Below are positions 1 through 28,851 of a DNA stretch of 31,303 nucleotides, in pieces. Numbering within the stretch: position 1 is the first letter of the stretch; every line of letters starts with the position of its first letter. The stretch is from Pigoraptor vietnamica. Its lineage: Eukaryota > Opisthokonta > Filasterea. The stretch covers positions 9,181-40,483 of the forward strand of contig CALSCQ010002973.1 of the NCBI GenBank assembly GCA_943704525.1. Reading direction: 5' to 3'. The position numbers were made by a program, and so were the translations under genes. The notes under the pieces are model-generated. The model saw only the letters and a list, made by a program, of their open reading frames with translations. It did no database searches and was not told the origin of the DNA.

Positions 1-2876
1 CTGTCCGGACTGCAGCACGTACGCGAGCGCGACCTGATACGTGGTGCTGGGCGCGAGGCCGACAAGGGTCGTCTTTGAAATCGAGACGTCCGTTCCGTTC
101 CAAGCCGCTTCGCCGTTGACGAGGATCTGGTACTGGATGACCGAGACCCCGGGAGTGGGCGGCGCCTGCGCCCACGACAGGCGGATCGTGCGCGCAGTCG
201 TCCCGCTCAGCGTCGGCAGCGGCGGCCGCTCTGCGAAAAAAAATAGGATATATGCATTAGGACGGCCCTATAGAACCAGCAGTCGGGCACAAGGCGATAC
301 ATACGCGGTAGAGTCTTTGCGACGACGGGGAAGCTCGTCGTCGCGCCGTATTCCGTCCGCACGCGCAGCACGATCGCGTACGTCGTCCCAGGCAGCAGAT
401 TGTTGATGACGGCGCTCGTCGCACTGCTCAACACCGTCATCACTTGAGTGCCGTTGACCTCGACAAAGCTGTCGAGCAGCGGCGCATCGATCGCCGGCGC
501 GTTCACAATCGGCCACGAGATGCCAATGGACGCGTCCGTCACACTCGCCACGGACAGAGTCGGCGGCGTCGGAAGACCTGCGTAATGCCACCATGAGCAA
601 CCGCTGGCAGTGTGGGTGCAGAGTTGCTGGACGTGCTGTTCGGAACCCACCGGACAGCGTCACCACTTGAATCGGAACCGAAGCATACGTAACATCCGCC
701 GTCACGGTAATCAAGACGGTGTACGTCGTCGAAGGCTTGAGTCCGGGCAGCGTCGCCGAGACCACTTCCCCGTTGGGCGTCGCCTTGACCTTCGGGACGC
801 CGTCGAGCAGAAGAGTGTGCTCAAGATTACCGACGGTCGACGTGAACGTAACGCGCAATGACGTAACTGTCGGCGTCACTTCGGAGATGCTGATGACGAC
901 CGCCACTGAGAGTTGGACGTATGTGGGTGTTAGGAATTGCAAGGGTTAGGCCTGGCTGCGGTTAAGGAAAGACAAAACACGGCCGCACATTCGACTCAGC
1001 CACTTACGAGTTGGCGTCGGTGTAGCGAGAGGCACGTTCGTTGGCAGGGATGAAATCGAAGTCGGCACGGCAGTCGGCGTCGTTACAGAGGACATTAGGG
1101 TTACGAGCGGCTGCGTTGTGCGCGCGATGTTGGTGCCGGCCACATCACGCACAAAGCCGTCGTCGATGACGAAATAGGTCGTCTCCGGCGAAGTCAGCGC
1201 CCGCGGGTCAGCCGCGCGGAGTGCGCTGACGTAGTCCGGGTTGAGCGAGAACGCAACCGCGTTCGTCACTAGAATCGACGAGGAGGTCGTCAGCGTGAAC
1301 GTTGCCGAGGGTGCGACGAACGGGCCGCCGAGAGTCATCGGGGCTGACGTGGACACGGCGTTGCCGGAAGAGGTGAGCAGGTGGATGCGAGTGAGTATCG
1401 CCGACGCCACCACAGGCTCATCGAAAGTGGCCGCGACGGTGAGTGTCGACAGGTCGAGCACGAGCGAAGTGAGGCGTGGGCGCACGTCGTCGACGTTGGC
1501 GTTTGAGTACTGTAGGCCCGTCGCATACGCGGGCATCGCCAAAGTCGCAACACCGTCCAGATCGCGCGCGAAGTCAGGGAACACAAGGAGCCGCTGCGTG
1601 CCGTAAAAGCTGAAGATCACGTGGAGCACATTGGCAAAGTATGGCGACGGCGACAGCGAAATCGTGCGCGCGACCGTGTCGACGGCGACGTCTCCCGCGA
1701 ACAGGTACAGAGTCGACTGCGCGTTCTCTGCGAACGCGAGTCCGGACGCATTCACCGAGCGGACGTCGATCGTTCCCGAGTAGCGGAGCACAATCTTTGC
1801 GGAGCCGACGTCGACGTCCCACGACATAACGCCAAGCGGGGCGTCGGTCCTCACGGCCATGGCGTCGCTGACGAGGATCTGTCCGGACTGCAGCACGTAC
1901 GCGAGCGCGACCTGATACGTGGTGCTGGGCGCGAGGCCGACAAGGGTCGTCTTTGAAATCGAGACGTCCGTTCCGTTCCAAGCCGCTTCGCCGTTGACGA
2001 GAATTTGGTACTGTATGACCGAGTCCCCGGGAGTGGGCGGCGCCTGCGCCCACGACAGGCGGATCGTGCGCGCAGTCGTCCCGCTCAGCGTCGGCAGCGG
2101 CGGTCGCTCTGCGACACAAGGAAAGTTAGAATACGGCTTCAGAGGCGCACAAGGGCATCAGCAGCACGTACGTTGCAGAGTCTTAACAATCACGGGGTCG
2201 CTTGTCGCCGAGCCATACGCAGTCCGCACGCGCAAGACAATCGCGTACGTCGTCCCGGGCAGCAGCTCAGGGACAACCGCGTCTGTCGCATCGTTTGCGA
2301 CCGTCATCACTTGCGTGCCGTTGACTTCCACGGCGCTGTCAAGGAGAGGCGCATCGATAGCGGGCGATTGCACGGACGGCAACTGGATATGGACGGACGA
2401 TTCCGTAACGCCCGTCACGACTGGAGTGCGGGGGGCTGCCGGTATGCCTGCGCACGCACAATGCATCCGCGAACGTAAGAGCGATGAAGGGACACGACCG
2501 CATCAAACAGCACTTTAACAGCACATGCAACTGTGGGGGATAGTACACAACATCAACAGAGGTTGTCACAACAGCGCACACAACATAGGTGGTCCAATGT
2601 CAATGTGGCCGTACACACCCGACAGCGTCGTGACATTCACGGGCTGTGTCAAGAATGGATTGGAGCCGACCATGACGCCGACGAAAATCGTGTGAGTGCT
2701 CGACGGCTTGAGTCCGGACAGCGTCGCAAAGACAGGCTCGCCGCCGGGCGTGGAGACAAGCTGGGAAGCGCCGTCCAGATACAGCGTGTGCTGCAAGTTG
2801 CCAACATTCGACGTGAACGACACGCGAATGGACGTAACGGCCGGGACAATCTCGAACAGGTTGATGCGGATATCCA
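1..2876 (-). repeat. Duplicated FN3 exon trio (b-c-a) at the left end
   Basis: Three consecutive exon types recur in the same order: b (2876-2619 and 905-651, LSGLKPSSTHTIFV or LPGLKPSTTYTVLI), c (2447-2172 and 577-305, ending LLPGTTYAIVLRVRT) and a (2108-1008 and 230-1). Positions 1-236 match 1879-2114 with only a handful of mismatches, at an offset of 1878 bp. All six exons begin in phase 1; five also end in phase 1, and the sixth is cut by the window edge. This is a tandem duplication of a three-exon block that continues past the window edge. Confidence 0.9.
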
Positions 2877-5800
2877 CTGCGCAGGGGCACAGAAGAGGGT
2901 ATTAGCGCCGTACAACCAGACGCACACGATCGAGGCAGCCACAACGACGACAGACGGAAGTACAATTGAGAAGACAAAAAACAAGCCCGAAATTTTCAGA
3001 CAGGCCAGTCTGTCCACATACTCTGCGTCGTGAACTCCGTTTCGCCGCCCACGGCCGATCCGCCCTCGCCGTCAACAATGATTTGAACGACGTAGGCCCT
3101 GCCGGCCTCCAGCCCCTTCAGCGTGGCGGACGTTGCGTCGGCTTTCAGTGTCTGGACAACCTCGCTGTCGAGCATAATCCGGTAGCCCGTGATGGGTCCG
3201 TTGGAGGGATCGGCAGGCTGCCAGGATAGAGTCGCGGAAGACGACGTGATGCCGGTGACGACGGCTTCCACCGCGGGCGGAATGGCTGGAGAACAGAACA
3301 GACGGTGCGGTGAAAAACGCGCCAGAGCGACAATAAATATTGCGGGGAAAAAAAAAAGGGAAAACAGTAATGAAGAGCGGAAAATGTTGCGCAAAAGGGC
3401 GAAGAGATGAAGAGGACTCAGAAACGAGAAACAGGTCCACTGACCGGCCCGTGTCCGGACAAGGAGCGGCGGACCCTGCGCCGCGCCCCATTCGGTGACG
3501 GCGCGAATCGAAATTGCGTACAGCCTGTACGGAAGCAAGTTCGGCACAAACGCGCGCGTGGCCCCAGGCGCCATGTCAATGGGCGCGATGGTGTCGTTGA
3601 GGAGGACGACATAGCTCACGTCGACGTTGAAGGGGTTCGGAATGGCTTCCCACTGCAGCGCAATCGTCGACGATGTGACGGTCGTGGCGGTCGGCGCGGC
3701 GGGCGCGATCGGGTCGCCTGCACGCGAGAATGCGTATGTGTCAACAAAATGAGGAAATAGAGGGGAACACAGAGACTAAGATTGTACAGACGCGCAGTTC
3801 GCGTGAGCCAAGAAGCTCCACCAGCAAGACAGTCAGGAAGACTTAGGTGCCCACCTGGCGACGTCTGAATTTCGACGGGCTCAGAGTCCATCGATCCGGC
3901 GTCGTTGGTCGAACGCACAACAATCGTGTAGAACGTGAACGGGAGAAGGCCGTCGACAGTGGCCGTTGTCGTGTCCCCAGGGACCTTCACCGCAATGTTC
4001 CCGTTGACGAGAATGTCAAACTCGCTCACAAACGAGTCGAAGGGAAGGATCCACGTGACCTCGATCGAATTCGCAAACGCGTTGTACCCCTGGATGGCCG
4101 CTTGCGTCGGCGCATCTGCGGGATGGACGTGGCGAAAGGGGATGTTAGAGGTGTCGGAACGGCTTATATCATAGACGCATGCAAATCGGAGGCGTTGGAG
4201 GTCGGACCAGTCTGAATAATAGACGTTTGTCCACAGGCTTCACGACAAGACAGGGTGAGGAGAGGTGCAGCTGTGAGTGCGCGAGGAATGTGCACACTTC
4301 ACGCACCCGGCAGCGTCAGGAACGACACTTGCGCGCTGGAATTCGAGCCCGCCAGCGTGAATGCCCGCAGATAAATGTTGTACTGCGTGTGCGGCGACAG
4401 GCCCGTCACGTTCACCGAATAGCCGGTTAGGGGGATGGTGTGGTCTGTGCTGACGACGACGAGGTCGTAGCGCGTGATGGGGGAGAGGGAATCGGTAATG
4501 GGAGCCCACTCGACAACCGCCATGCGCTGCCGCACGGACACAACGACAGGCGGCAGAGGAGCCGGTGGGAAGGCTGCGTGCGGCAAACGAAAATTCAAGT
4601 GGGTGAGAAGAGATAGCGAGAGCACCTCTTGACGCATACATGGCACGTGAAGCGGCATAAAAAAAGAAGGCATGCGAAAGGAGCACGTTTCCTTTGCGTG
4701 GAGACACAAACAATGCAAGCGCAACAGACGACCCACCGGTGCAGCCGTCCGATCCAAAGCCGCTGTTGAAGGTGAGGTACGGCTGCGGGCAAGTGCACGT
4801 GACAATCGAGGTCGCGTTGAGGCAGGCCGCTACTGCGTGGCATCCGCCGTTGTCGAACGCGCACAAATCGCACGGCGTCTGCGCGCCCCGATAAGAGCCG
4901 GACTGGACGCTGAACGACCCGCACGTCATGAGCGCAGAGACGCCGCTGAGGCGGCCACCCGCGAGCACTATGCGTCCGCGGAACTTGAACAACGCCGGCG
5001 CTTGGAGGGTGCCGGCCGGCTGAATCGTCAGCGTGAAGCTCGAAACCTGCGTCGTCGACGTAAACGCAACAGTTCCGTTGACGTACATCGAGCCGGTGCC
5101 GTCGGAACGGAAGCTGGTCGGTGTCGACTGCCACAGCAGGCCGCTCGAGGGAACGCAAAAGGCGCCGTTGTTGTTCATCACAATTGCCACCGAGAGGTTG
5201 CCGCCACTCACGGCGCCGCCCGCAAACGCGTCGGCACAGTCCGTCGCAAACGGCACTGCAGCGCCAGTGAGAGCCATTTCCCAGTGCGGCAGGCCACCAT
5301 TGTCGATGAGGAGCGTGCGCGACGTCGGGACGCCTCGCACTTCCGTGTAGACGGTGCCGGGGCCGCCGCCGCGCGTGGACTGATCGGAAGAGCCCTTGGC
5401 ACGCGCCGTCATGCGCCCACGGAACGCGGCGAGGCTGTCTGCGTAGACAGCCACGCGACCGCCGCCACCGCCTCCAGAGTACAGGTCGCCCGTGCCGCCG
5501 TTGGCAGATATCGTCCCGTTGCCAATTAACACGCCGCATTCGAGCCAGATGCTGCCGCCTGACGTCGCGCCGACCGCCGCAAAGAGCGGGCAAGCTGTGA
5601 CACGGTCCATTCCGTTCGCGCTGATCGTGCCGTCGACAGCGCACTGACCCGTCACGCGGAAGTGGATGGCACCGCCCGCCGCAACGCTGCACCCGGCTAC
5701 CTGGGGAACGTCTCGCGCGCTATATAGGGAGATAGGAATTTAAAGGGTCAGCAAAACGGACACAGTGCAAACCACAACACGGGATACTCACGAAACGCCG

Positions 5801-8588
5801 CTTCCAAAGGTGACCGGCGCCAGGAAGTTGCCGTAAGGAGCGCCCGGGAGCACCGTCACCGTCTGCGAGGAGTAAATGCCACCGTAGCCGCCGTGGCTGC
5901 TGCCTGCCATCGCGTACAAGTAGGACGGAATGACCGTCGGCGTGCCCGGACCACCCACGCGAGGCCCTTCGCCGTCGGCCGATATGTAGGAGTTGGCACC
6001 GACAACGAGAGAAGCGGTGTTGACCGTGACAGCCTGCGGGTTCGGATCGCCCGTCGAGTACCCGTTCGCGAAGATCAGGCGCCCGCCGGACACGACGCTC
6101 ACAGAGTCGAAGTTGAACGCGAACGATCCGCCGAGCGTGCCGTTGCGACCGTCAAAGGTGGCCGTTGCATTGGACACCGTGAGGGAGCCAACCGAAGAGA
6201 TCCGACCGTGGTTCTCGAACGACGTCCCACTCACGACCAACTGGCCCACATTGCCCAAGTTACCGAAGTTGACGAGGCGCGACGTAACGTTGAGCAGGCC
6301 GCCCGTTGCCACAAGGCGGCCGCGAGGCATGATGAAGATGGTCCACGCACCGGGCCAGCTCGTGCTCGGCGCCGTCAGCGAGTTGACGTTCAGCGACCCG
6401 CCGTCAATGTAGAGCGCGGTGGAGTAGATGCCCTCGGACGTGATAAGCGTGGATGGGGAGTACACGTCCGTGTCGCGCACAATCAGCGAGCCTCCGTTGC
6501 GAAGCACAATCTGGTCATAGCCCAAGACGCCGCCCGCGACGACGGCGCTCGCAGTGACGCGCGAGCCAACCACGAACGAAATGTCGGCGGGCGTGCGACC
6601 GCCACCGTCCACGATGAGCATGCTGTGAATGGCCCTCTCGTCCCGCAGGAAAATCGTGCCAGGTCCAGCATAGTTCGACCCAAACACGTTTCGCCCACCA
6701 TACGCGGTGATGGACCCCGAGAAGTCCATCGCGTTGAAGTGGACCGCAATGCGCCCGCCGCCGCCCGCCGAGTTCGCGTTGTACGATTCGCCGCCGTTCG
6801 CAGACAATCGCCCGGTGCCGGTCAGCTGGAACACGTTCAGAAGAAGCGACCCGCCCGACCCGCCGCTGCCCTGGTAGCACGAGTTAGACGTGTTGGCGGC
6901 GTCCGCTGAAATCCAGCCGTTCAGAACCATCGTTTGCGTGGAAAAGCTGAGAGCGCCGCCGCCCCGCCCCGCACAAGGTGCGTATCCGGGATACTGCAGA
7001 CCGCCCGAGCCGATAGACGTGGGCGTCTGCACGTTGCCATACGTGGGGCCTGGTGCGGTCGACGGGAACACAAGGTTGGCCGAGCCGTAACCACCGTGCG
7101 AAGCGCCGCCCACTTGGTTGTCGCGGCCGTCGCGGCTGGTGCCACTGCCGGGACCTGTGAGCCAGAAGCCTGCCAACGCGACGAGATGTGCACACGTGAG
7201 ATCCCTGCGCTTGGACAACACCGGACAGAAGGACGGTTCCACTCACCCTGTGCGTCGGCAGAGATGTGCCCGCCAGATTCGACCGTCACGGACGTCGCGC
7301 GAATTGTAACGAGCGCCCCCAAGTCCATGCGCTGTAGGGCCACTCCGTTGCCGATCGTCAGCGTCGCGTTCACGCTGACATACACAGAATCGAGATCGAA
7401 GGCAAACGTGCCGGCCGACGTGCTGTTACCCTCGAGGAACACGCGCACGTTCGGACAGAGGGTGAGCGAACGGAGCCCCAAAATGGGGCCGTACAGGTCC
7501 GTATCCGCGCAGAGTGTCAGGTCGCTGACGCCCGTGACGTTGCCGTAGACGGCCATGTTTCCGTTCAGCTGCAGGCTACCGAAGCCGACGAGTGTGCCGG
7601 CTAGCGTCATGGCGACCGTGTTCGGAAAATCGAACTGCCCAGCGAACACCCTCCCGCCAATAAGCAGGCGCGAATCAGGGCGCGAGCCAGTGAAATCGAC
7701 AACGCGCATGTCCAGCGTGTCGCCGGGCGCAATGCACAGGTGGCCAACGTTCGTCATGCGGATGTGAGAGGGTCGCGAAGGGTCGGACGCGTACGCGCAC
7801 GGATAGTTGAGCGGCGAGAGGGGAAGAATGGGCGCCACTTGGCGGTTGCCGTTGTCGACGTAGAGGGTGCCGCGGTCGTTGTTGAGGGACCGATCGAGCA
7901 CAAAGACGGTGCCCGGCCCTCCCGCGAACGGAGAGCGTGACAAGTAGGGGTCGCCGCCGCGCGACAAAAGTTGGCCGGTGAAGCCGCAGTCGGTGCAGTA
8001 CACGGCGAGGCGGCCACCAGCACCTGTTGGTGTGACACGTTCGTCAGAAAGCGCTCAAGATGAGCAATCAACAGGTGCGTCTGCGTGAAATGACGACACA
8101 CTGACGTGCACGAGATGACATGGGACTTACCGGCGCCGCCGTAGTAGGTCGCCGCTCCACCGTTGACACGGATCGTGCCGTTTCCTCGGAATGTCGCCGT
8201 GTCAATCCAAACCGACCCGCCACTGCACACGAGAAAGCTAAATAAGCATGCCCCAGCTGCCAGTGGTCGACAACTCACCAGCGTACAGCCTTTCAATCGT
8301 ACAGCAACTCACCTGGCACCTGCGGTTGAACAGCTCGGATCCGCGTTGCTGGCGTCCGCGGACACGGTGCCGTTGACGGTCATCGTCCCGCTCACAACAA
8401 TCTTGAGGGCGCCGCCGCCGTACGCTTGGCAAATGTCGCGCAGATCATTCGGATTGAGGCCGCCGCTCCCAAGCGTCGTCGGCTGATATGCATCGCCATA
8501 CGGATACCCCGGGAGTGCCGTGGAGCCCTGGCCAAAGTTGTCCGTGGACCCTGCAGAGTAGGGAGTAGTTCAGTTGGACTGCGCTATC

Positions 8589-8619
<31 letters not shown>

Positions 8620-11600
8620 CAAGAAAATAGCAGCAAACGTTTACGACACAGAGAGAGAGAGAAGACGTGCACAGGCAGGCCGTACCAAAGCCGCCGTGCC
8701 CGGCGCCTCCGTTCTGTTGGACGCGGCCAATGTTGCCGACCGAGGCTCCAGGGCCAAAGAAAGGCCACCCCTGCTTGTCCGCCGTGATGCGGCCGGTTGC
8801 GTCGACGACGACGGTCGACGCCTCCAGGGTCATGCCCTGCCCGGTGCTGCCGGATGTCGGGTTCGCGACGCTGATGCCGTTCGTGAGTTGGAGGGTGCCC
8901 CCCAAAACGCGCACGGTGTCCATCGCATAGTGGAAAGGCGCGACGTTGCCCGAACGGCCGTCCAGCGTCATCAGGGCGCCGCTGCAGACGGTCACCTGTT
9001 GCATTGTGGATATTGTGCCGTTCAGCTGAACGTACGACCCAGTGCCGCACGCCGTCAGGTCTTGGGTGCCGTTCACACGCCCCATCGCGAACAGTCGGCC
9101 CGTCCCGTCGACGCGAATCGCGCCCGACGTCACGAACAGCGCGCCGCTCGGCAACACGTAAAGGTCGAGGCCGGGCACCCATGCGGGGCCCGTCATCGAC
9201 ACGGTGCCGTCGACATAGATGACCCCCGTGAGATCCGGCGTCGAGACAGCGGTGAGGGCCATGTCGAGCAAGTCGTTCTTTGGAACGTAGACCACGCCGA
9301 GGCCGCGCAGGACGAGCTCGCGGAGGGCGTCCGGCCTGGTGCCCTGGACGACGGTGGACGAAACGACCGACGGGCGCGTCTGCGAAATGGGGCCCGTTTC
9401 GAGTCCGCCGTTGTCAATCACGATGCGGTCCATCGTCCCTTCGCCGCTGACGTCACGGAAGTAGACGGTGCCCGCCGCGGCGTTGGCGGCCGGCGGAATG
9501 GCGCCGTTCGACGTGTAATACGACCCTCCGTACGCAGTCACGTTACCCGTGAACGTCATCGTTTTGAAGTAGACGGCAATTCGACCGCCTGAGAAACACG
9601 GGACGGGAGTGGGTGAGCGAGCAACCGGAACAGTCATGCGCTTGCCGAGGCAATACGCGGATGCGAGAACTAATGGCTTCATCCACTGTGCAAAAATCAA
9701 GGCCCTCTCCTCCGTACCTCCGCCGCTTCCACCGTAGTACGTCCCCTGAGCACCGGCCGCAGTAATACGCCCGCCGCCAGCGAATCGGTCGAATTCGAGC
9801 CACAAAGAACCGCCGCTGAGAAAAGCCAGAAGCGAAAAAGGAAAAAAAAAAGAGAGGCGGCAATTTAGACAACTGGGCAATGCATCCCGAGGCAGTGACT
9901 CGGCTCTCACCTCGCGGCACCCATGATGCAGTTGGAATCGACCGTGATCGCATCCGCTGAAAGCCGCCCGTCGATCGTGGCGTCCGAAGCAATAATGTGA
10001 AGGGCGCCGCCGCCGCCGAACTGGCACCTCGCCGACAGAATGACATCAGGCGTGACGCCGCCGCTGCCCTGCGTCATTGGGCGGTACGCGTCGCCGTAGG
10101 GCGCCTGGAACGTCGCCGTCGGGACGCCGGCCCACGCCCACGCAGCGCCGAGGCCACCGTGCGCCAAACCGGGCTGCCCGCTTGTGGAGTACTGCGTCTT
10201 GTAACCCCCCGGACCTCCCTTGAGGTAACCCTGGCCGTGGGTGCCCATCAGCGCACCGGCCTCGACCACAAGAGATTGCGCGGTGAAGTTGACGGCGGTC
10301 AGTGGCTGTGTGGACGCGGGATCGCCGTTCGAAATGACGACCTCGGCGCCACGGCGGACCGTGAAGCTGTTGTAGAAAAATTGGAAGGCGTCTCCCTTGC
10401 TGCCGTTGCGGCCGTCGAAGGTCGCGAGGACTCCGCCGCATATGTCGACGTTGTCGCACTGCGGCATCGTTCCGTGGTTCTCGAACGTCCCGCACACGGA
10501 GACGGAGCCGGCGCACTGGATCACGCCGTAGTTGACTGTCGGGGCATTCATGCGGAGCGGGGTGCGACCGGCCACACGGATGGCGCCGCTGGGAAAGACA
10601 AACGCCGACATGTTCGCGTTCCATGTCGTGTCTGTGACCTGCACTTCTCCTTGCACAAAGAGCGTCGTGCTGGCGTCGAACGTCGCACTCTCCAATTGTT
10701 GAAGCACTAGCGTCTGCTGCGCGGGGACGAGCGGCTGTCCACCGTTGCGCACGATCAGCGTGTGGAAGCGTTGGCCCACGAGCGGCAGCGGCGTGCACGC
10801 CTTCGCACGCGGGTCGAGCGTCGGGAACGGCGCAGCGACGAGCCCGCCATTGTCGATCGTCAGCGTCCCAATGTCCTCAGACGACGACTGGAGATAGACT
10901 GTTCCGGCACCCGCGGCGTTGCTCCGCGAGCCGTATGCACCCATGCCACCGTACGCGGTTATCATCCCCGTGAATTCGGACATCCTGATGTAGTAGACGG
11001 CAATTCGCCCGCCGCCACCACCACCGCCGTAGTAAGTGGCACCGCCGCCGTTCACGGAGATGGATCCGTTCCCCACGAGCTCGTTGACGTTGATCCAGAG
11101 CGAGCCGCCGCTACAAACGAAAAATGTGATTGCATTAGCCAAACACGCACAGTGAAACCCGGCCAGCCGTGTGGGAAATGGGCAGCACACGCAAATCGAA
11201 CTGCACGGGATGGTGAAACTTGCCTTCCGCCCTGCATCACGCAGTTCCCGCTGTTGTACGGATTCCCGCCATCCGCAGACAGGAACCCGCGCAAATCGAA
11301 TGTCGTCCGCACGGTGAGCTTGAGCGCGCCGCCACCCGCGCCACTGCACGCGTCCGCCCTGTCGTTCAGAGAGCCCGTCCCGAGTGACGTCGGCTGGAAC
11401 GGGTCGCCGTACGTCGCGCCGGGCGGGCTGGGGTCCTTGTTGTAGTACCAATCCTGCGAGCCGTAACCGCCGTGCGAAGGGCCTTGCTGGTACGAATTCC
11501 GCGACGGCGTAGGCGAACCGGGGCCGCCCGAGAAGTAACCCTGCTTGTCGAGCGACAGCCGCGCATTGCCGCCGATGGTCAGCGCGCCGACATCGAGCGT

Positions 11601-14600
11601 CGTCACGCCACCATAAGCCGCCGTCGGAGTGATGCCGTTCGAGAGGCCGAGGAACGAGTACGCACCAAGCGTCAGGCTGTTGAATGCGAAAGACAGATTG
11701 CCGGCGTTACCGGCGTAGCCGTCGAGGTAAACCGACATGGACGGGCACACGATGAAGTCCAGGATGTCCTTCAGGGAGCCGTAGTTGTTGAACGTCGCGC
11801 ACGCCGTGAAGGCCTCGGCGCCGCGGATGGTCCCGTAATTGTTGAGCGTCGTGCGGACGGTGAGAGAGGGTCCCAGGGCGCGGAGGGTGCCGTTCACCAC
11901 GACGACCGTCGTCATGTTGCCCGGCCAGTTTTCCCCCGTGAGCTGGACCTCGCCGGCCACGATGATGCCCGTGTCGCCATCGAACGTGATCGGAATGCTG
12001 TCAATGCTCAGCGTGCTTCCCTGCAGCACGTGCGCCTGCGCACCCCCGCGAATCGCCACCGACCGATAGCGAATCGGCGAGAGCGGAAGTGGAGTCGACG
12101 CCTTCGCCAGCGCGTGCACATATGGGAACGGCGCAGCGACGAGCCCGCCATTGTCAATCGTGAGCGTCCCAAAGTCATCCGACGACGACTGGAGATAGAC
12201 TGTTCCAGCACCCGCGGCGTTGCTCCGCGAGCCGTAGGCTCCAATGCCACCATACGCCGTAACCGTTCCTGTAAATCCCGACATCGTGGTGTAGTAGATG
12301 GCAATTCGCCCGCCGCCACCACCACCGCCGTAGTAAGTGGCACCGCCGCCGTTCACGGAGATGGATCCGTTCCCCACGAGCTCGTTCACGTTTATCCAAA
12401 TCGACCCGCCACTACGGATCATAACATCTCGCGTCAGTATTGGACAAAACAAAGTGGCACAATGGACCAACACCACTACGCTGTGAGCGAGCGCGCCGCT
12501 TGCCTTCCACCCTGCATCACGCAGTTCCCGCTGTTGTACGGATTCCCGCCATCCGCAGACAGGAACCCGCGCAAATCGAATTTCGTCCGCACGTTGAGCT
12601 TGAGCGCGCCACCACCCGCGCCGCTGCACGCGTCCGCCCTGTCGTTCAGAGAGCCCGTCCCGAGTGACGTCGGCTGGTAAGGGTCACCGTACGTCGCGCC
12701 GGGCGGGCTGGGGTCCTTGTTGTAGTACCAATCCTGCGAGCCGTAACCGCCATGCGAAGGGCCTTGCTGGTACGAATTCCGCGACGGCGTAGGCGAACCG
12801 GGGCCGCCCGTAAAATAGCCCTGCTTGTCGAGCGACAGCCTCGCATAGCCGCCGATCGTCAACGCGCCAACGTCGAGCGTCGTCACGCCGCCATAAGGGG
12901 CCGTGGGAGTGATGCCGTTCGATAGGGTCAGCACCGATAGGTACCCGAGGTTGAGGGTCTCAAAGTTGAACGACAGATTGCCCGCATTCCCCGCATAGCC
13001 GTCGAGGTAGACGGATACGCCGGGACAGGTCGAGAAGTCGGTGATGTCGAGCAGCGGGCCGTAGTTGTTGAAGGTGGCACACGCAGAGAACGTCACGGCC
13101 CCGCGGATGGTGCCGTAATTGTTCAGAGGAGCACGCAGGGTGAGCGACGGCTGAAGCGTCCGGATGACTCCCCCCTTGAGGACGAGCGTCGTCATGTTGG
13201 CAGGCCAGTTGTCCCCCGTCAGCTGCACCTCACCCTGCACATTGAGCATCGCCGTCGCGTCAAACTTGCTCGCGATCGTATCGATCGGGTAAACGTCGCC
13301 CGGATTGACGAGCGCCTGCGCGGCGCCACGCACGAAGAGGGTCGCAAACTTGAGCGGCTGGCTGAGCGGCAGCGGCGTCGGCATCCTCGTGGACGGATTC
13401 AGCCACGGGAAGAAGCCTGGCACGAGGCCGCCGTTGTCGATGTACAGCGACCCCGGATTGTCCTGACTCTGCAGATAGACCGTCCCCGCCCCCGCACCCC
13501 AGTTGTGAGTGTCGCCGTAAGCGCCAATGCCACCGTACGCTTGGATCGACCCGTTAAAACGGCTCATGGTCGTATAGTAAATGGCCACGCGACCGCCGCC
13601 GCCGCCGCCGGTGTAGTACGATGCGGCGCCGCCGTTCGCCGAAATGACACCGTTGCCCGATAGTTCGCCGACGGTGACCCACAGGGATCCGCCGCTGCAG
13701 ACACGAGAGGAAAATAATGTAGAGGTGAGAAGCGCGTCACGTGCGCCAATGTCGCACACCAAAACGAATGGGTGCAAAGTGCAAATGAATCATCAGAGAT
13801 CGAGAATATACGGCCGCAAGATAATCACCTTCCACCTCCGCCGAGACAGGGCGCGGTCTGCGGGCTGCCTCCATCCGCGCTAATGTACCCGCGGACGTCC
13901 AGCGTCGTGACAATGAGGCGAAGCGCACCGCCACCGGCGCCGTTGCAGATGGGCGTGAGGATGGTCGGTCTGGAGCCGCCAGTACCGAGGGCCGACGGCT
14001 GGAACGGGTCGCCGTACGTCGGTCCCGGCCGAGTCGGATCCCTGTTGTACGACCAGTCCTGCGTTCCGTAGCCGCCGTGCGACGGTCCCTGCGTGTAACT
14101 TCCGCTTGCGGTTGGGGCGCCGGGGCCGCCGGCGAAGTAGCCCTGCTTGTCCAGCGACAGGCGCGCCCCCACGCCCACCGAGAGCGAGTCGAGCGTCAGC
14201 GTCACCATATATCCCCACTCCGTCGCTGGCGTTATGCCGTTCGAGATGGTAAGCACGGAAGAGTCCCCGAGCGTTATACTGCTGAACTCGTAGCTCAGGT
14301 TACCGGCGTTCCCATAATAGCCGTGGAGCAGAGCAGTCGTCGAGCGGCAGAGCGAGAGGGACGTCGTGTCGCGCATGCCACCAAAGTTCGAGAACGACGA
14401 GCATACGACAAGCTGTGCGCCGCCCGTAAGAAGGCCGTAGTTTGCCAGCGAAGAAGTGACGTTGACGACCGCAGGGTTCGCCACGGCAGCGACAACGCCG
14501 CTCGGAAGGATAGTCGTCGAGACGACGTTTGGCCACGCCGACCCATCCACCTCGAGCCTGCCGCCGACGTAGAGCTGCCCCGTGCCATCGCCACTAATGC

Positions 14601-17006
14601 GGGTGGTCAAGGCTTTGAGCGTGAAAGTGTCTGCAACCAAGAGGGCGCCGCCCTTTCGGAGGACGAGGGTATCGTACGTGTGATCGAATGCGCCGCCGGC
14701 GGGCGCGGCGAGCGTAGCGATGTTCGGCAGGAACATGTCGAGCAGCGAGGGGGTGAGGTTGTCGTTGTCAATGATGAGCTTGCTGACGCCGTCGGCGTTG
14801 ATGAACACCGTGCCAGGCCCGGCAGCCATCGTCCGGTCCGCACTCGCTCCGCCTACAAAAAAATGGCGGTTAGCACGCGCGGAGACGTGGGATGCTCTCG
14901 AGCTCGAGGGAAAAGGGATCAAAGCCGAGGCGAGAAAGAACGAGAACAATCAGCAGACAAAACGCGCACAAAAAGCGAACTGTTCACAACACGGACCTCG
15001 CGCGCGCATCAGCCCAGTGAAGGACGCCGCCGTGTCCGCGAGCACGGCCACGCGACCGCCACCACCCGCGCCGCCGTAGTAAGTTCCGTTACCGCCATCC
15101 GCCATTATCATGCCCGTGCCCGAGAGCGCAGCAGTCCGAATGTATATAGAGCCACCGCTCCCGCTCGCTACGTTGCAGGAGTTCGGGTCGGGTGACAAGG
15201 CGTTCGCAGAGACGAGGCCGTCCACAACGACCGACGCCGAGGCCGTCAGCTGCATGGCGCCGCCAGCGTTGGTGCTGCAGATGGCGCGCGTGTCGCCGTT
15301 GCTTCGCCCTCCGCTACCAAAGGCCGTTGGGGCGTACGGATTGCCGTAAGGTGCCAGAACGCCGCGCTTCGACCGACCCGAGGGCGACTCTTGTGCGCCG
15401 TAGCCGCCGTGTGATGAGCCGCACAGGGGCGACAACCTCGTTGTGTCCGTGCCTGGACCACCGTCGACGAAGCCCTGGCCGTCCGAATCGAGCATGGCGT
15501 TCCGCTCAACCGTGATAGTGAACGCATCGATCTTCAGGAGGTATCCGTTGACCGCGCCCGCCACTCCGAGCCCATTGCCGAGCGAGAGGCGTCCACCGCT
15601 GTTAACCGTCACCGACCCGAACACAAAGGAGCCGCGCTGTCCGATCGAGTTGGCATCAGCGGCGCCGGCGCCGTCCGCAAGGAGAAGGCGCGAGGCCGCG
15701 CACACACGAAGGGCACCTATGCCGTACAGCTGGGCGCGGCTCTCGACGTACGATGCGCACGCCGTCAGTGCCTGCGCGTTGACAGCGCCCATAAAGTACG
15801 CCTTGCCGCTGACCACGAGCTCGGCGGGACTCGATATGGACGAGTTCACGGACGAGTAGAGAGTCATCCCCGTCGGCCAAAACTTGTCTGCAAAGGTGAC
15901 ACTGCCCCACACGTGAAGCGTGCCCAACGAGTCCGACACAAGCGAGGCCGAGGAGGCCGAGAGCGACGTGGACGCGGGCACCATGAGCTGACCTCCGTTA
16001 CGCACGGTCACGGTCTTGAAAGGAAACGCGCCAGTAACGCCGAGGGGGACAGTGGCAGAGTAAGGCGGAAAGTAGGAGAGCCCCGTCCCCCCAAAAGGGT
16101 TTGATTGGCGACCGGCGTTGTCGACGATGAGCGAGCCCGTGCCCACGTCAGGCAGCCCCGTGAAGACATACACGGTCCCCGCGGCAGCAGCATTGTACTT
16201 TGTCACGTCCGACGTGCGATAAATGCCGCCATACGCCGTCATCGCGCCCGTGAACAGCGACGTCGCCGCGTAAACCGCAATGCGACCGCCGGAACCGCCG
16301 CCGCCTCCGAAGCCGGCGTCGCCGCCGTTCGCAGAGATGGTGCCAGCACCCGACAGCACGCCAGTCTCGATCCAAATACTGCCACCGGAGCCACCGCCGC
16401 CGCTGCACGAGGCGGGGTCCACGCCGAGCGCGTCTGCCGTGACGCTGCCATCAAGCGTCAACGTGGTCGTGACCATGAGATGCACCGCGCCACCGCCCGC
16501 GCCGGAGCACAGCAGGCGCGCGTCATTGGCATTTCCGCGGCCGCAGCCAACGGACACGGGCCGAAACACGTCGCCGTACGGGCGTCCGGGGACTACAGAC
16601 GACGGATCCGCGCCTCCCGAGCTTCCGTAGCCGCCATGGCCTGCGCCGGGGTAGATACCGAGGGCGGTCGTGCGGCCGTCAAGCCCACCGAATGAGCTGT
16701 ATCCCTTGCCGGTCGTGGTGATGGATCCACCCGCCTCAATAAGCACGGTGTCGGCGCGGATTTCAACGGGCGCAATGATGGTTCCGTCGGTGTTCCTCGG
16801 ATCGACCACAATGGAACCCCCGCTGCGGACCGTGATGGAGAGGAATGTGTGCGGCGAGTTGTCCGCGGTTATTGTGCACGATTGCCCGCTGAGCAAGAGA
16901 ATGGCAGTGCCGTCGATGCAGGGCGCTGCATGCGGAACACAATGGAGTCGCGTTAACGAATGTGACAAAACCAACAAACCACACGCACGCACGAACACAC
17001 TCGCAC

Positions 17007-17060
<54 letters not shown>

Positions 17061-17267
17061 GCACACACACACACACACACACACAGACGCACACACACGC
17101 GCGCGAGCGCTCACAAAAGTGTAAAACAGAAGAGTGAGAAGCGCAACAAGTGGATGTGACCCCATCTGCGCACGACAAAGCCCACCCGCAAAGGCACTGC
17201 GAGTAAGTACGAGGAGCGCGAGCAGGTGGATGGCGACGACACGACGAACGCACGTCCGCGCCGCCAT
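1..17267 (-). CDS. Giant secreted/surface modular protein: beta-solenoid repeats, EGF, FN3 chain (3' end missing)
   Basis: Twenty-three exons can be joined in one frame (4842 codons), reading down: 17267-17186, 16925-14997, 14852-13829, 13694-12504, 12411-11224, 11110-9911, 9815-9718, 9588-8686, 8550-8313, 8222-8131, 8023-7247, 7154-5792, 5719-4737, 4573-4307, 4115-3855, 3717-3445, 3285-3022, 2876-2619, 2447-2172, 2108-1008, 905-651, 577-305, 230-1. All borders are GT-AG except two GC-AG (donors at 12503 and 11223). Exon 1 encodes a 27-residue signal peptide. Then come about nine glycine-rich units marked by SHGGYG, GGGGGGRIAVY, AGAGTVYL and ISADGG motifs, an EGF-like module, and FN3 domains. 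No transmembrane segment or stop is seen, so the anchor, if any, lies outside the window. The architecture suggests an adhesin or extracellular-matrix role; this is inference. Splice sites are assigned by eye and need transcript support. Confidence 0.85.
1008..2108 (-). other. Exon 20: FN3 domain fused to two Ig-like 'LTFSETV'-type domains
   Basis: The first 90 or so residues are an FN3 domain (IRLSWAQAPPTP, GLAPSTTYQVALAYV). After it, without an intron, come two related domains of about 115 residues, each opening with a strand pair of the form P-L-S-x-D-L-D-x-x-T-x-x-A-x-F-x-E-P-V. The first is SWDVDVGSAKIVLRYSGTID, the second LVLDLSTLTVAATFDEPV, followed by an aspartate-rich FVIDDGFVRDVAG. 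The pattern resembles Ig-like repeats seen in large surface proteins of protists and algae. I assign this by pattern only. A Thr/Pro-rich linker (SSVTTPTAVPTS) closes the exon. Confidence 0.6.
3022..4573 (-). other. Exons 14-17: four fibronectin type III domains, one per exon
   Basis: Exons 4573-4307, 4115-3855, 3717-3445 and 3285-3022 (267, 261, 273 and 264 bp) each encode one FN3 domain of about 88 residues. The hallmarks are visible: an early proline run (PPAPLPPVVVSV), the core Trp (VVEWAPI, VTWILPF, LQWEAIP, LSWQPAD), and the LxPxTxYNIYLRAF or LLPYRLYAISIRAV strand. All four exons are phase 1 at both ends. FN3 domains usually act as spacers or binding modules in extracellular chains. Confidence 0.85.
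4737..5719 (-). other. Exon 13: end of solenoid region plus EGF-like module
   Basis: The exon first completes the last solenoid unit (ISANGG, SGGGGGGRVAVYAD, GPGTVYTEV, LLIDNGG). It ends with a six-cysteine EGF-like module, about 4737-4873, containing CDLCAFDNGGC and CTCPQPYLTF. This module marks the boundary between the solenoid head and the FN3 chain. The donor at 4736 (GTGGGT) is phase 1, which starts the run of phase-1 FN3 exons. Confidence 0.75.
5792..9815 (-). other. Exons 7-12: beta-solenoid units split over several exons
   Basis: Further units of the same family are cut by extra introns: 9815-9718, 9588-8686, 8550-8313, 8222-8131, 8023-7247 and 7154-5792. Two extra introns fall at the equivalent glycine run (YYGGSGG|GRIAVY and YYGGAG|AGGRLAVY), two near the start of the SHGGYG block (GHGGFG|S and ISADAQG|P). 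Exon 9 has no obvious long open frame of its own but reads through DNFGQGSTALPGYPYGDAYQ and continues the repeat pattern. The units are more diverged than exons 4-6. Confidence 0.75.
8591..8619. repeat. A29 tract (T29 in the transcript) in intron 8
   Basis: An uninterrupted run of 29 A on the plus strand lies inside the intron 8685-8551 of the giant gene. In the transcript it is a long poly-U tract about 40 nt before the acceptor and may serve as the polypyrimidine tract. It is also a likely place for sequencing length error. Confidence 0.95.
9911..14852 (-). other. Exons 3-6: beta-solenoid units, one unit per exon
   Basis: Exons 14852-13829, 13694-12504, 12411-11224 and 11110-9911 (1024, 1191, 1188 and 1200 bp) each carry one copy of the unit of about 400 residues. 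Exons 4-6 begin at the same point, inside an S-GGS(L/I)W motif, and exons 3-6 all end at the codon-phase-2 AG before the next one. Exons 4-6 are therefore symmetric (phase 2-2) and can be duplicated or lost without a frameshift. Recurring motifs are LSLDKQGYFxGGPG, SHGGYGSQDWYYN, GAGGGALKL, GFLSADGGNPYNSGNC, GNGSISVNGGG and GGGGGGRIAIYY. Confidence 0.8.
11224..12930. repeat. Near-identical tandem segments in exons 4 and 5
   Basis: About 430 bp from 11221 matches the sequence from 12501 (offset 1280) almost base for base, including the GC donor, and then divergence sets in. A second block, 10818-11110, matches 12118-12410 (offset 1300). The central parts of the exons are clearly more diverged. 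This mosaic fits recent tandem duplication with later gene conversion of parts of each unit. Confidence 0.85.
14997..16925 (-). other. Exon 2: glycine-rich beta-solenoid units 1 and 2
   Basis: This 643-codon exon starts at CIDGTAILLL and holds two repeat units. Each unit runs: ITTTGKGY or DSDGQGF lead, GHGGYG or SHGGYG block, P-YG---P---G turn, GAGGGAVHL block, ISANGG strand, GGGGSGGRIAVY block, AGTVYV strand, LIVDNAG, then a variable region with VRNGGQL. Short regular Gly/Ser turns alternating with aliphatic strands, and repeated Asn/Asp at turns, are what a right-handed beta-helix looks like. The fold is inference. Cysteine pairs recur in the variable half of each unit. Confidence 0.75.
17009..17098. 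repeat. (AC)n microsatellite in intron 1 of the giant gene
   Basis: A nearly pure AC tract with two AGACGC interruptions lies inside the 260-bp first intron (17185-16926). In the transcript it is a (GU)n tract ahead of the acceptor. It produces spurious cysteine/valine and threonine/histidine open frames that are not genes. Confidence 0.95.
17186..17267 (-). other. Exon 1: signal peptide exon of the giant protein
   Basis: The exon encodes exactly the 27-residue leader, with Arg residues followed by a hydrophobic core (HLLALLVL) and a small-residue end (SAFA). A phase-1 intron follows directly, with donor GTGGGC at 17185. Downstream sequence resumes as an APCIDGT start to the mature protein. 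The start codon at 17267 is the first ATG giving this leader. The signal peptide therefore sits alone on its own exon. Confidence 0.8.
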
Positions 17268-17962: not shown

Positions 17963-20324
17963 TCACAGAGGCTGGCTCTTGAGGAAGCGCTCAAAAAAGG
18001 CAAGCGACTGCACGGGCTTGTAATACGGCACCATGTGACCCGCCCCTGCAAGGGCAGCCGGAAGGAAGAGATAAGCGACTGCGTGCGAGCCAGTTTGCAA
18101 CAGGAGATAAACGGCGGAATAGAGAACACAATCACAGGCCAACGACACTCATGATGGTGAGCGACGGGTCGAATCCCATTGTTGACAATACAACACAGGA
18201 AATGTGCGACACAACCCACCCTTGATGGTAGCATAGACAAGGTTCTCGTACTCCTGAGTAAAACCGGCCACTTGGTCGCCCACAGTCCACGGCCGCCACG
18301 CGCTCTTTGGCGTGAGGTCAAGCGCGTCAATCCACGCCTCGGTGCCCGTGTGGGGCACGCTCAGGTCCTGGTCACCTGCGACGGTCGGGTTGAAGAGCGA
18401 TTAGTACCTCCAAAAGCGATGGAAACAGGAGACGCAAGGGAAACACTGCTAGGAGAGGCAAGGAAACGCACCGCTGAAGATGAACGCCCGCACGCCCTTC
18501 GACGTGAGCTCGGCGTGGATCGGAATCATCGACTTGGCGTAGAGGTCGCTGCCGTACTGAATCGACGTGCTGCACATGGCCCACTGGCCAATGTTCGCGA
18601 TGGGCGCCGCGTGGATTGCGCTGCGCACGACATCGGCGTTGATGTAGTCGACGAGGCGCGCAGAGTCAATGCAGGGCGGCGTCCCGCGAAGGCGCTCGGC
18701 CGCAAGGGGCGCAAAGACAGGCGACGAGAGCACATGCGCGTGCGTCGCCGCCTTCGTCTGCTGGAACTGGTCCCAGAGGACGTTGTACACGCAGAGCCCA
18801 GATGCAATGGTGTCGGCGTGCGAGGTGAGCTGGCGGCAGGCGGGCGACGGCTTCGAATACGAGCCGCGGCATTCCTTGTCGATCTTCGCGAAGAGGTCGT
18901 TGCTGATGATGCTGCAAGGCACGAAATAAAACACGGTAAATTCACTGTATGTGAGATATGTGTACACGTGCGTACGTGTTTGTGAGGAGTGTGAGTGTGA
19001 GTGTAAGTGTAAATGAGTGCGAGCGTGAGTGTGTGTGTTCGCGTAGAGAGAGCGCGCGAGTGTGTGAGTGCGAATGTCGGAGGGAAGCAGCGCATGCCGC
19101 ACACCTGTGCCCGTGCAGGAACGTGTAGGCGGCCTCGGAGTCCAGCTCCATGTCAGAGCAGCCGTTGCCCACAAAATACCCCTTGATGTTGATCTGCGTC
19201 GCGCCGCTCACCGCGTTGCCGTGAACAATCGCCTGCGTGAGAGTGGGCACGTAGATGCCTGGAGAGAGAGAGAGAGTGAATGAAGCTTGGTGTGAGAACA
19301 TACCGCCGATTGAATAAGGGACAAAGCCAGGTAGGTAACGCACCGGCGTACGACTCTCCCGAGACGTAGAAATCGTTGGCAAGGTACTGCGGATACTTCG
19401 CGAAGAAGGCGAGAAGGGCCGAGTAGTTGTCGCGTGCTGCGAAAATAAGATAACGGCCTAAGCAATGAAGGCCGCAAGGGTGGAGATATAGAGAAGGGGT
19501 ACAGGCACGCACCCGTGGTCGTGTCGTTCGTGTTGTAATCGGCCGTGTTCGACGAGTACGAGAGACCCACGCCAGCGGGAGCCTCGAGATAGAGGACATT
19601 CGCAACCTATTTCGCAGAGCACATCTCAGCCGGCAATACTTTGGCTCAAACTCCTTGACGTCGAAACACCAATACACATGTCACGCACTCGCACGTACCA
19701 CACTCGCACACACACAGCCACATATTATTACACACACACACCTGGTTCCACGAGTACGGGTTCAGGTCAAGCTGCTGCTGAGCGCCACTGGGACCGTCAA
19801 CAAAGCGGAAGGGTCCGTTCTCGTAAAACACTGCGTTTCGCCGCAGAGCGCGTGAGCACACGCGCCCTCCCACGCACAGATATAGACCCACGTGGAATGA
19901 AGATGTTCACAATAATCAACAGAATGCTCACTTCCGTAGAGTGAGCTGCAGCCCGGGCCGCCGTTCAGCCAGAGAACCTGCGTGAATATCGCAATGAGCA
20001 CAACGCACGACGGCGTACCGCATGTCAGACGAACAACGACAATAACGCACCAGAGGATCGCTCGAGGCATTGTTCGCAGACTCGACGAACCAGTAAAACA
20101 GTTGCTTGTTCCTGCGATTGTAACATAGCATTAGTTACGGCCGAGCAAGACAACGGTGCCGCGAACACCCACCCCACAGTGAGATAGCCAGCGAAAGACG
20201 TCACTTTCTGCGCCGAAGGGGTGAGGCCGGGCAGCGAAACGAGGTCTGCGTTCACGTCGATCGGTTTTGCGACGACGCACTGCGCGAGAATGGCCGCCGC
20301 CAGCACCACAGCAAGTCCCTTCAT
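17963..20324 (-). CDS. Serine carboxypeptidase, peptidase family S10
   Basis: Ten exons join to 455 residues: 20324-20173, 20111-20051, 19977-19932, 19830-19742, 19606-19513, 19436-19344, 19258-19105, 18911-18472, 18375-18220, 18045-17963. All introns are GT-AG, 61-193 bp. A signal peptide (MKGLAVVLAAAILAQCVVA) opens the protein. Family S10 landmarks follow in order: GYLTVGNKQLFYWFVES, WLNGGPGCSSLYG (about 74-86, oxyanion region), NGPFR, NPYSWNQ, APAGVGLSYS, GESYAG (catalytic Ser about 176), VGNGCSD, GDQDLSVPHTGTE (catalytic Asp near 380) and GAGHMVPYYKP (catalytic His about 432). The enzyme should remove C-terminal residues from peptides at acid pH in lysosomes, vacuoles or outside the cell. 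Length and motif order are complete, so it looks active. Confidence 0.95.
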
Positions 20325-20738
20325 GTTGCTCGTTCCAAGCAGAAATTCACTATACGCAAATGTGGCGATTCACGCTAAAAGCAATGGAAATAACGGGCCG
20401 ATGGGAGAGATAAGAGGGAAAAACTTGAGGTTGAAAGCTCGCTATGGGCTTGGGAGTTGAGTGTGCGGAACTTTCGCAATCGGATGGCAACCAATCAGAC
20501 GCCGCCGTGGCTGATTACGCCACACACGTGACCACAAATCTTACCATTGTAACAATAGTAACAAATATCATGACGTATATGTGACGACATATTTGTCACG
20601 TGCATGACGTCACCGTGCCTCTCGATGAGACGTAGTGCTCACCTTCACTTTTTATCGCACAGACAATTCTTATACGTTGTTAGAGACAAGTCGTAAGATC
20701 GGGTTCTGTTTGCGTTTGCTACAGACATTTTCGGTATC
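20325..20738. promoter_or_regulatory. Divergent promoter between carboxypeptidase and stomatin-like gene
   Basis: This 414-bp gap separates two genes transcribed away from each other. It contains CACGTG at 20525-20530 and 20597-20602 and a perfect CRE-type palindrome TGACGTCA at 20605-20612, three bases after the second CACGTG. The middle section is AT-richer with several GTGACG or ATGACG repeats (20570-20610). Binding by bHLH-zip or bZIP factors is inference from motif similarity only. Confidence 0.5.
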
Positions 20739-22675
20739 ATGGCGCTCAGTCTCGTGCGCGCCGTGTCTGCGCAACGGTTGGCGCTGGTGCGGCCGGTGAG
20801 CTCTACAACACCTCGTTTTGAGTGCAACACAGCGTTTTATTCACAGGCTAATTCGCGCTCAATGTGCCGTTGTTCTGTCGCAGGCGGGCATACCGCGAAC
20901 CGTCGGTGCGATGCGCATGGGCCTCCTTGCGCCGGTGTCCATTCAGTCAAACGCATACCATGCTGGGCGGCGCCACAAGAAGCCCATCAACACGGTGCGT
21001 CAGGGGCTTGGCATGGAGTGTGGGAGAGTGCGCACTGTACAATTTATGTGTCGGGACATGGCCTGTCGTGCTTTTTGTTTGACTGTGGGCAGCGCAGTAT
21101 GTGCAAGCTTCCGTCGCTTGTCCTCATCCACGGTGGCCCATTGCAGGTCATCAACTTTGTGCCACAGCAGGAGGCGTGGGTGATTGAGCGGTTTGGCAAG
21201 TTCCATCGGGTGCTGGAGCCCGGAGTGAACATCCTTCTCCCCGTTATCGACGACATCAAGTACGTGCACAGCCTCAAGGAACTCGCGCTCGACATACCCT
21301 CGCAGTCCGCCATTACGCAAGGTGGGTGTTGCGGCCCAGCACGGTTGCATTGTACTGGGAGGAGTGCGCTTTTTGTGCTGAAGGGTGCTTCTTCGCGTGC
21401 AGACAACGTTACACTTCATCTCGACGGCGTCTTGTATCTCAAGATTGAAGATCCAAAGCAGGCGAGTAACGGTAGTGCCAGCGAGCGCGCGGGACACAGA
21501 ATCGCCTAATGTGGTTCTATTTTGCAGGCGTCGTACGGTGTGGAGGACCCCGAGTACGCCGTCAAGCAGCTTGCGCAGACGACGATGCGTTCTGAGATTG
21601 GCAAAATGCGCCTCGATGACGTGTTCCGCGAGAGGGCCAGCCTCAACCTCCACATTGTGGATGCGATCAACTCTGCCGCCGCAGTGTGGGGCATTCGCTG
21701 CCTGCGCTACGAAATCCGTGGGTGGTTGCCTGGCCGCTGGGTTCGCCTCCTATTTGTTGTGTTTGTGTGTGTTTTGTTTCACTTCTAGAAGAACATTATC
21801 TCAAAAGGGCATGTTTCTGAAGGACATTTTCGCACGCCACAGGGGACATTCAGCTGCCGGAGAAGGTGGTCGAATCGATGCAGATGCAAGTGGCGGCAGA
21901 GCGGAGGAAACGCGCGGCCATTCTGGAGTCCGAGGGTCAGTAACCCTTCGCCGTCGATCATGTTTTGCATCCCTTGCGACCCATTTTTGTTTCTGTTTAT
22001 TCATTTCGAACTTTTTTTTTGCTCACTTACCAGGTGCGCGCGAGTCGGCCGTCAACCTAGCCGAGGGTAACAAGTCTGCGCAGATTCTTGCCTCGGAGGC
22101 GCGCAAGCAGGAGCAGGTCAACATTGCCACCGGTGAGGCGCAGGCCATTCTCGCGAAGGCCGAAGCAACCGCCAAGTCGATCGAACGCATTGCCGCCGCC
22201 ATCGCGCTGCAGGGCGGCCGCGACGCCGTGTCAATGACGGTGGCCGAGCAGTATGTCGAGGTGCGTGTTGGCCTCTAAGAGATGGTGCCCTCTACGAAGT
22301 GTTGGAATCGTATGCATTATCAATTCACACGTGCGTTACGCTGCGTTTCGTGTGCAGGCATTTGGAAAGCTCGCCAAGACGGGCACCACAATCCTCCTTC
22401 CTTCCCAAACCAACGACGCCGGTTCGATGGTTGCGCAGGTGAGCGGTGCTTTCGGCGTTTTCCAGCACTTGCGCTAAACAACCATGCCCATTTCGACTTG
22501 CCTCCGCAACTCTGCGCGAACAACTGATCGCGTCGTCGCGTTGCAGGCCATGTCCATCTTCGAGACCGTGCGCCGTTCCCGCGAGGGCGCGGAGCCGCCG
22601 GTGAGTGTCGCGGCCCCGAGCATCGAACCACCAAAGCCACGACCCGCCGATCGCAAGGTTCCTCCCTCGGCGTGA
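20739..22675 (+). CDS. STOML2: Mitochondrial stomatin-like protein 2 (SPFH/prohibitin-homology family)
   Basis: Nine exons give 373 residues: 20739-20795, 20884-20994, 21147-21321, 21403-21461, 21528-21717, 21843-21935, 22034-22260, 22358-22438, 22547-22675. The Arg-rich, acid-free N-terminus (MALSLVRAVSAQRLALVRP) looks like a mitochondrial targeting peptide. The SPFH core follows with VINFVPQQEAWVIERFGKF, DNVTLHLDGVLYLKI, ASYGVEDPEYAV, LAQTTMRSEIGK and GIRCLRYEIRDIQLP. An Ala/Glu/Lys-rich coiled coil and TVAEQYVEAFGKLAKTGTTI close the conserved part. Family members form oligomeric inner-membrane scaffolds that bind cardiolipin and stabilise prohibitins and respiratory complexes. Intron 4 (21462-21527) has a GC donor (CAG|GCGAGT). 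The last 20 or so residues, Pro-rich, are not conserved in what I recognise. Confidence 0.95.
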
Positions 22676-26478: not shown

Positions 26479-26574
<96 letters not shown>

Positions 26575-28750: not shown

Positions 28751-28792
<42 letters not shown>

Positions 28793-28851
28793 CGTGGCAA
28801 AGATAGGCGAAAGGACGAATATGAGGGACGCGCAACATGTACCGACGAGGC

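Follow-up and report, generated by a model that had tools for sequence, protein, structure and literature searches.

A predicted very large modular gene of Pigoraptor vietnamica with nine glycine-rich units, unnamed bacterial relatives of the unit and a chain of FN3 exons

Chains of EGF and FN3 modules are usual in cell-surface proteins, and the EGF module is recognised by a pattern of six cysteines. Glycine-rich repeats are described for the PE_PGRS proteins of mycobacteria. PMC8001218 treats intron-driven building of proteins from phase 1-1 exons as restricted to Metazoa. Here, a stretch of 31,303 nucleotides (nt) of Pigoraptor vietnamica (GenBank assembly GCA_943704525.1, contig CALSCQ010002973.1, positions 9,181 to 40,483; referred to as the window) was analysed. 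As judged from sequence, it contains one gene whose modular product would be very large (at least 4847 amino acids, aa) and in which nine glycine-rich units are followed by an EGF-like module and a chain of FN3 exons. The unit is without a name in the searched family libraries (Pfam, NCBIfam) and has many bacterial relatives.

A preliminary description of this DNA, made from the letters alone, had joined 23 exons in a continuous frame. Re-splicing from the DNA reproduced exons and frame on the minus strand, and corrected the codon count from 4842 to 4847. The spliced coding sequence contains no stop, against about 121 predicted from base composition; its two other frames contain 137 and 53. 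The 22 introns are 63–260 nt long, 20 of them with GT-AG ends and two (introns 4 and 5) with GC-AG ends. GC content is 79% at third codon positions vs 51% in introns. Introns 7 and 16 are stop-free with lengths divisible by three, and retention of intron 21 also gives no stop; removal of these three therefore rests on homology, splice ends and the fit to units and FN3 domains, not on frame. Bacterial contamination was ruled out by the 22 introns with splice ends and by the eukaryotic-type neighbouring genes. An Rfam scan of the window gave no match. A 75-aa end of actin is one residue away from the best actin in the PDB, which is too little for a placement of its source.

The gene starts with an ATG at 17267, and the protein is probably secreted. 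Exon 23 is still open at base 1, in line with the earlier statement that the 3' end is incomplete. The 9180 contig bases left of the window read N, so the C-terminus and any anchor are not visible. Long GT repeats lie in intron 1 (16926-17185), and the window has further GT as well as CT repeats outside it. The parts of the gene are listed below, with the basis of each assignment in brackets.

17186..17267, minus strand: exon 1, with the start codon and a stretch resembling a signal peptide, followed by a phase-1 intron (signal peptide read by eye)
15667..16893, minus strand: unit 1, aa 39-447, weak G8 match in its first part (Pfam, repeat spacing, AlphaFold2)
14335..15666, minus strand: unit 2, aa 448-843, across intron 2 (repeat spacing)
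13010..14334, minus strand: unit 3, aa 844-1240, across intron 3 (repeat spacing)
11730..13009, minus strand: unit 4, aa 1241-1636, across intron 4, GC-AG (splice model, repeat spacing)
10417..11729, minus strand: unit 5, aa 1637-2036, across intron 5, GC-AG (splice model, repeat spacing)
8954..10416, minus strand: unit 6, aa 2037-2449, across introns 6 and 7 (splice model, repeat spacing)
7431..8953, minus strand: unit 7, aa 2450-2846, across introns 8-10 (splice model, repeat spacing)
6151..7430, minus strand: unit 8, aa 2847-3247, across intron 11 (splice model, repeat spacing)
4873..6150, minus strand: unit 9, aa 3248-3649, across intron 12 (splice model, repeat spacing)
4737..4872, minus strand: EGF-like module, beginning at aa 3650 and ending with exon 13 (PF12947 below cut-off, cysteine positions)
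4307..4573, minus strand: exon 14, FN3, phase 1-1 (Pfam, splice model)
3855..4115, minus strand: exon 15, FN3, phase 1-1 (Pfam, splice model)
3445..3717, minus strand: exon 16, FN3, phase 1-1 (Pfam, splice model)
3022..3285, minus strand: exon 17, FN3, phase 1-1 (Pfam, splice model)
2619..2876, minus strand: exon 18, FN3-like solely by likeness to exon 21, phase 1-1 (no Pfam match)
2172..2447, minus strand: exon 19, FN3 at 24.2 bits, just under the cut-off, phase 1-1 (Pfam)
1008..2108, minus strand: exon 20, FN3 plus a stretch of about 290 aa unmatched in Pfam, phase 1-1 (Pfam)
651..905, minus strand: exon 21, copy of exon 18, FN3 at 18.1 bits, under the cut-off, phase 1-1 (Pfam)
305..577, minus strand: exon 22, copy of exon 19, FN3, phase 1-1 (Pfam)
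1..230, minus strand: exon 23 (partial), which repeats the beginning of exon 20 with 225/230 bases identical, gene open

The nine glycine-rich units named in the preliminary description were recovered with the motif HGG[YLF]G, spaced at 396-413 aa and each about 397 aa long. Pairs of units are mostly 30-36% identical, while units 3, 4 and 5 share 55-72% with each other. Within units 3 to 7 (five of nine), a phase-2 intron cuts the same serine codon of an SGGS motif, and owing to this common position exons 4, 5 and 6 are each one unit long. When exons 4 and 5 were compared in six blocks, the last two were 94% and 96% identical and the preceding four 59-69%; between exons 5 and 6, the first block was 89% identical and the remaining five 48-71%. 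From these alignments, exons 4, 5 and 6 look like neighbours that have undergone patchy exchange. Introns 4 (12412-12503) and 5 (11111-11223) both begin with GCAAG. They lie beside those parts of exons 4 and 5 that are most alike, as though introns and exon parts had been copied together.

For structure prediction, exon 2 (the N-terminus and 1.6 units) was modelled with AlphaFold2. The model is all-beta with a solenoid-like strand pattern, at a predicted local distance difference test score (pLDDT) of 86.7 and a predicted template modelling score (pTM) of 0.86. A glycine-rich core with turns of about 34 residues is followed by a stretch of shorter strands, and strands of 10-12 residues alternate with glycine loops. 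The stacked beta turns of this confident model place the unit in the beta-solenoid fold, as had been proposed before; a non-solenoid prediction, which would have spoken against that proposal, was not obtained. The assignment is based on strand lists and structural matches only. Against BFVD, three matches at E <= 0.001 were obtained (Bathycoccus virus, Ostreococcus virus and one without a name); they resemble part of the model, with a TM-score of 0.20-0.24 by query length and 16-21% identity. Searches of the PDB by sequence gave best E values of 0.28 with one unit, 0.29 with a nine-exon profile and 1 with a 32-row profile.

The absence of a family name, claimed earlier, was borne out: Pfam and NCBIfam scans of ten exons gave no family above its cut-off on the units. 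Matches to EIAV_GP90, U71, DUF4402, DUF7433 and histidine ammonia-lyase (E 0.03-0.17) were taken as chance. The unit is nevertheless no orphan, since it has many bacterial relatives, among them a Marinicella protein (locus L025) with FN3 and Ig-like domains behind the units.

A five-row core alignment served in the search for relatives. Among the 69 stretches of genome contigs to which it led, 15 encode relatives: ten from Verrucomicrobiota, two on Marinicella pacifica contigs, and one each from Planctomycetota, Hydrogenedentes and an uncultured bacterium. The unit profile matches all 15 (best single unit E 2.5e-48). Matches span positions of about 12-316 of 400 and leave the last part mostly uncovered, though one locus (L046) reaches 376. 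Judged by tandem profile matches over the core, the unit of the giant gene is homologous to those of the bacterial proteins in its core. Bacterial units (27 loci) are mostly spaced at 254-282 aa, with a minority at 299-381, and the giant protein with its longer repeat departs from a value near 260 aa. As controls, the same 200 open reading frames (ORFs) were reversed or block-shuffled and gave best E values of 0.32 and 0.42, respectively; matching through glycine-rich composition alone is rejected on these grounds.

Genomes were also searched with the core of unit 1 at E <= 0.001, seeds included. Matches were found in 28 of 288 genomes of Verrucomicrobiota (the phylum of G002 and L027), 15 of 199 of Planctomycetota (that of G004 and L034) and two of 299 in the phylum of Marinicella (G001). 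One of the Planctomycetota genomes (G595) is marginal, at 7.5e-4 and with internal stops. By tblastn with the same core, nothing was found at E 1e-5 among 72,556 records of plasmids or 50,697 of phages. Viral contigs were scanned twice and yielded 32 and 22 pattern matches, none of them a relative by tblastn. In the Verrucomicrobiota search, matches at about 3963472-3967671 of contig C1 of genome G103 lie within an open frame of 14,967 aa.

Domains around the bacterial units were determined by a Pfam scan of 11 long ORFs from 11 of the 15 loci, three at E <= 0.01 and eight at E <= 0.001. No listed best above-cut-off Pfam stretch falls on the units of these ORFs. The Marinicella ORF carries FN3 and Big_13 behind its units. 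In L033, Big_7 and Big_2 precede the units, and in L038 lectin-type, CARDB, Big_5 and Big_13 domains flank them on both sides. The verrucomicrobial locus L027 (2299-12225, six units) has a caspase-type Peptidase_C14 domain (28.5 bits, above cut-off) and DUF7619 behind its units. L030, L036 and L037 gave only matches under the cut-off.

For the tree, 77 cores were used, nine eukaryotic and 68 bacterial (E < 1e-20 plus length filters); L040, being the same place as L027, was omitted. All nine eukaryotic units fall together inside the bacterial spread, as a group with a support of 87/97. Its neighbours are units of Marinicella, of Hydrogenedentes and of some loci that the Verrucomicrobiota search had yielded. 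The tree has an arbitrary root, and its long branches include units 6 and 8. Because the nine units group among bacterial ones, multiplication of a single bacterial-type unit in this lineage is the simplest reading that the sequences suggest. Alternatively, the units may descend from an old eukaryotic copy. The three predicted viral structures in BFVD, two of them from algal viruses, and the phage family phrog_13336 are a lead to a viral route and nothing beyond that.

Behind the units, the EGF-like module called in the preliminary description shows the six-cysteine pattern, while its EGF_3 score (PF12947) of 23.1 bits (E 9e-5) stays below the cut-off of 28.5. The proposed FN3 stalk holds as a chain and fails as a pure FN3 array. 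At the Pfam cut-off of 25 bits for PF00041, six of ten exons qualify (14, 15, 16, 17, 22 and 23). Exons 19, 20 and 21 score below it and exon 18 has no Pfam match, exons 18 and 21 being divergent. Exon 20 (22.5 bits in the exon scan, 25.3 in the genome scan) contains the unclassified stretch; its fold predicted without an alignment was unusable (pLDDT 32.9), and within its own genome it matches only itself and exon 23. Exons 21-22-23 repeat exons 18-19-20 with DNA identities of 60%, 70% and 97.8%. Exons 14-22 are class 1-1 modules with phase 1 on both sides, and exon 23 has phase 1 on its one visible side.

FN3 spacing elsewhere in the genome was read from the genome scan table (32.5 Mb, 1395 contigs), which gives a lower bound and knows the other genes from match positions only. 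At least seven pairs of neighbouring FN3 matches are only 25-61 nt apart (three on C1248, one each on C279 and C84, two on C520), whereas those in the giant gene are at least 108 nt apart. As gaps of 25-61 nt are smaller than the shortest intron of the giant gene, the FN3 genes of this genome do not as a rule have a single FN3 in each exon.

With modest confidence, we lean towards a large secreted modular adhesin in which a bacterial-type unit has been multiplied into a stiff rod on an FN3 chain. One such unit would have entered the lineage and multiplied by duplication of intron-flanked pieces. The nine units would stack into the rod, and its repeated surface could make many-point contacts with polysaccharide or other cells; we therefore propose that the protein works as an adhesin of the beta-helix type. 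The preliminary description had likewise put forward an adhesin or matrix component, which stays an inference. At about 11 turns per unit (counted by eye from the model strands) and 0.48 nm per turn, a unit would measure about 5 nm and nine units about 50 nm. The chief rival, which we consider unlikely, is a coat or matrix protein whose rods pack side by side into a wall, theca or cyst coat, with FN3 and EGF as spacers and no specific ligand. In favour of a coat, the array is long and regular, and the solenoid part is rich in glycine (17%) and poor in charged residues (K+R+D+E only 10.7%). The core of unit 1 also has 14 matches in its own genome, all within the giant gene, where only best candidates were scored. 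Two features point away from a coat without being decisive: the EGF and FN3 chain is of the kind found in cell-surface proteins, and the FN3 part has no cysteine for cross-links.

The units could also belong to a secreted polysaccharide-processing enzyme, as beta-helix folds are common in lyases and the N-terminal stretch weakly resembles G8 (PF10162). Here, the G8 score is 17 bits against a cut-off of 22.9 and recurs in one of 32 aligned members at E <= 0.1, no catalytic family reaches its cut-off on the units, and nine near-repeats would better fit binding or structure; we hold this to be the least probable of the explanations weighed. It is also very improbable that the splice model has fused two neighbouring genes, one for the solenoid (exons 1-13) and one for the FN3 part (exon 14 onwards). 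Upstream of exon 14, its frame stays open across intron 13 and includes in-frame ATGs, so an internal start before exon 14 is possible by sequence. Against this, intron 13 has GT-AG ends and its removal keeps the frame, while its retention breaks the long frame with 13 stops. In addition, the intron behind the EGF module is in phase 1 like all later FN3 introns, and Marinicella carries units and FN3 in one ORF.

Several points weigh against an adhesive rod of bacterial descent. A Foldseek search of the PDB with the exon 2 model gave no match at E <= 0.001. Most VIA rows cover model residues of about 300 to 642 and miss the first core, so the structural likeness concerns the solenoid fold in general, and a common fold, here a predicted one, shows no function. 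The rod length is arithmetic and not measured, and with the C-terminus beyond the sequence, anchoring is not visible. The group support of 87/97 is short of the tool's own mark (95/80), and any direction of transfer is read from a eukaryotic sample that consists of the nine units of the giant gene only. Four of the 11 bacterial ORFs (L039, L028, L031 and L034) have no other domain at E <= 0.001, so an FN3 or Ig stalk is not general among the relatives.

The neighbouring genes of the window were assigned from Pfam matches. On the minus strand at 18449-19680, which is upstream of the giant gene, no fewer than three open frames match Peptidase_S10 (serine carboxypeptidase). On the plus strand, 20697-21509 carries an SPFH/Band 7 domain (E 9.6e-10). 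At 24697-30361 (minus), an ANF_receptor ligand region (E 1.2e-41), an EGF-like stretch under the cut-off and pieces of PK_Tyr_Ser-Thr follow in order; by their domains, these pieces look like a receptor kinase. A match to Sgf11 (30821-31303, plus, E 6.8e-17) lies in a frame that enters a long GT repeat at the window end.

Through one confidently modelled unit, a eukaryotic gene is linked to a part of large bacterial proteins that has no annotation; the unit can hence be named, expressed and tested. The gene also displays a duplication series, and in it the solenoid pieces and the FN3 pieces next to them differ in intron phase. As a tentative and rather doubtful history, a nameless bacterial module may have crossed into a eukaryote, gained the intron in the serine codon and become a phase 2-2, exon-sized cassette, multiplied to nine and joined an FN3 chain grown from class 1-1 exons. 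If this were true and the host is not an animal, it would be a case of intron-driven building of an extracellular protein outside Metazoa. It would bear on whether phase 1-1 exon building is an animal speciality, as PMC8001218 has it.

Among the matches listed from open-licence literature, the unit is undescribed. The beta-helix surface proteins SRRP, tapirin, HxuA, pertactin, Ag43 and Awp1 gave no match in the PDB sequence-profile searches (E 0.29 and 1 at best). When the members of the 32-row alignment were scanned with Pfam, two matched Big_5 (best E 0.00086), and every other family was found in one. The sole recurring NCBIfam model is AgmC_N (NF047640), which reaches E <= 0.1 in 12 of the 32 members (2.8e-7 at best); its match to the giant protein's unit lies on the glycine-rich core, and its score on exon 2 is 16 bits, where the cut-off stands at 275. 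The model is titled 'adventurous gliding motility protein AgmC', and we take the gliding role from this name. The phage family phrog_13336, which has neither name nor function, likewise reaches E <= 0.1 in 12 of the 32 members (2.9e-7 at best), while exon 2 has no PHROG match. From PE_PGRS proteins, the giant protein would be set apart by its 10-12-residue strands alternating with glycine loops. The bacterial tandem-unit proteins are plain ORFs (L029 in several overlapping frames), whereas the giant gene has 22 introns, and EGF and a chain of FN3 exons were seen in it only. Both share tandem units and the same core, with 42-47% identity over about 200-213 aa in the best pairs. Several of the bacterial proteins have a similar first strand pair before unit 1, and some carry FN3, Ig-like, lectin-type or CARDB domains elsewhere.

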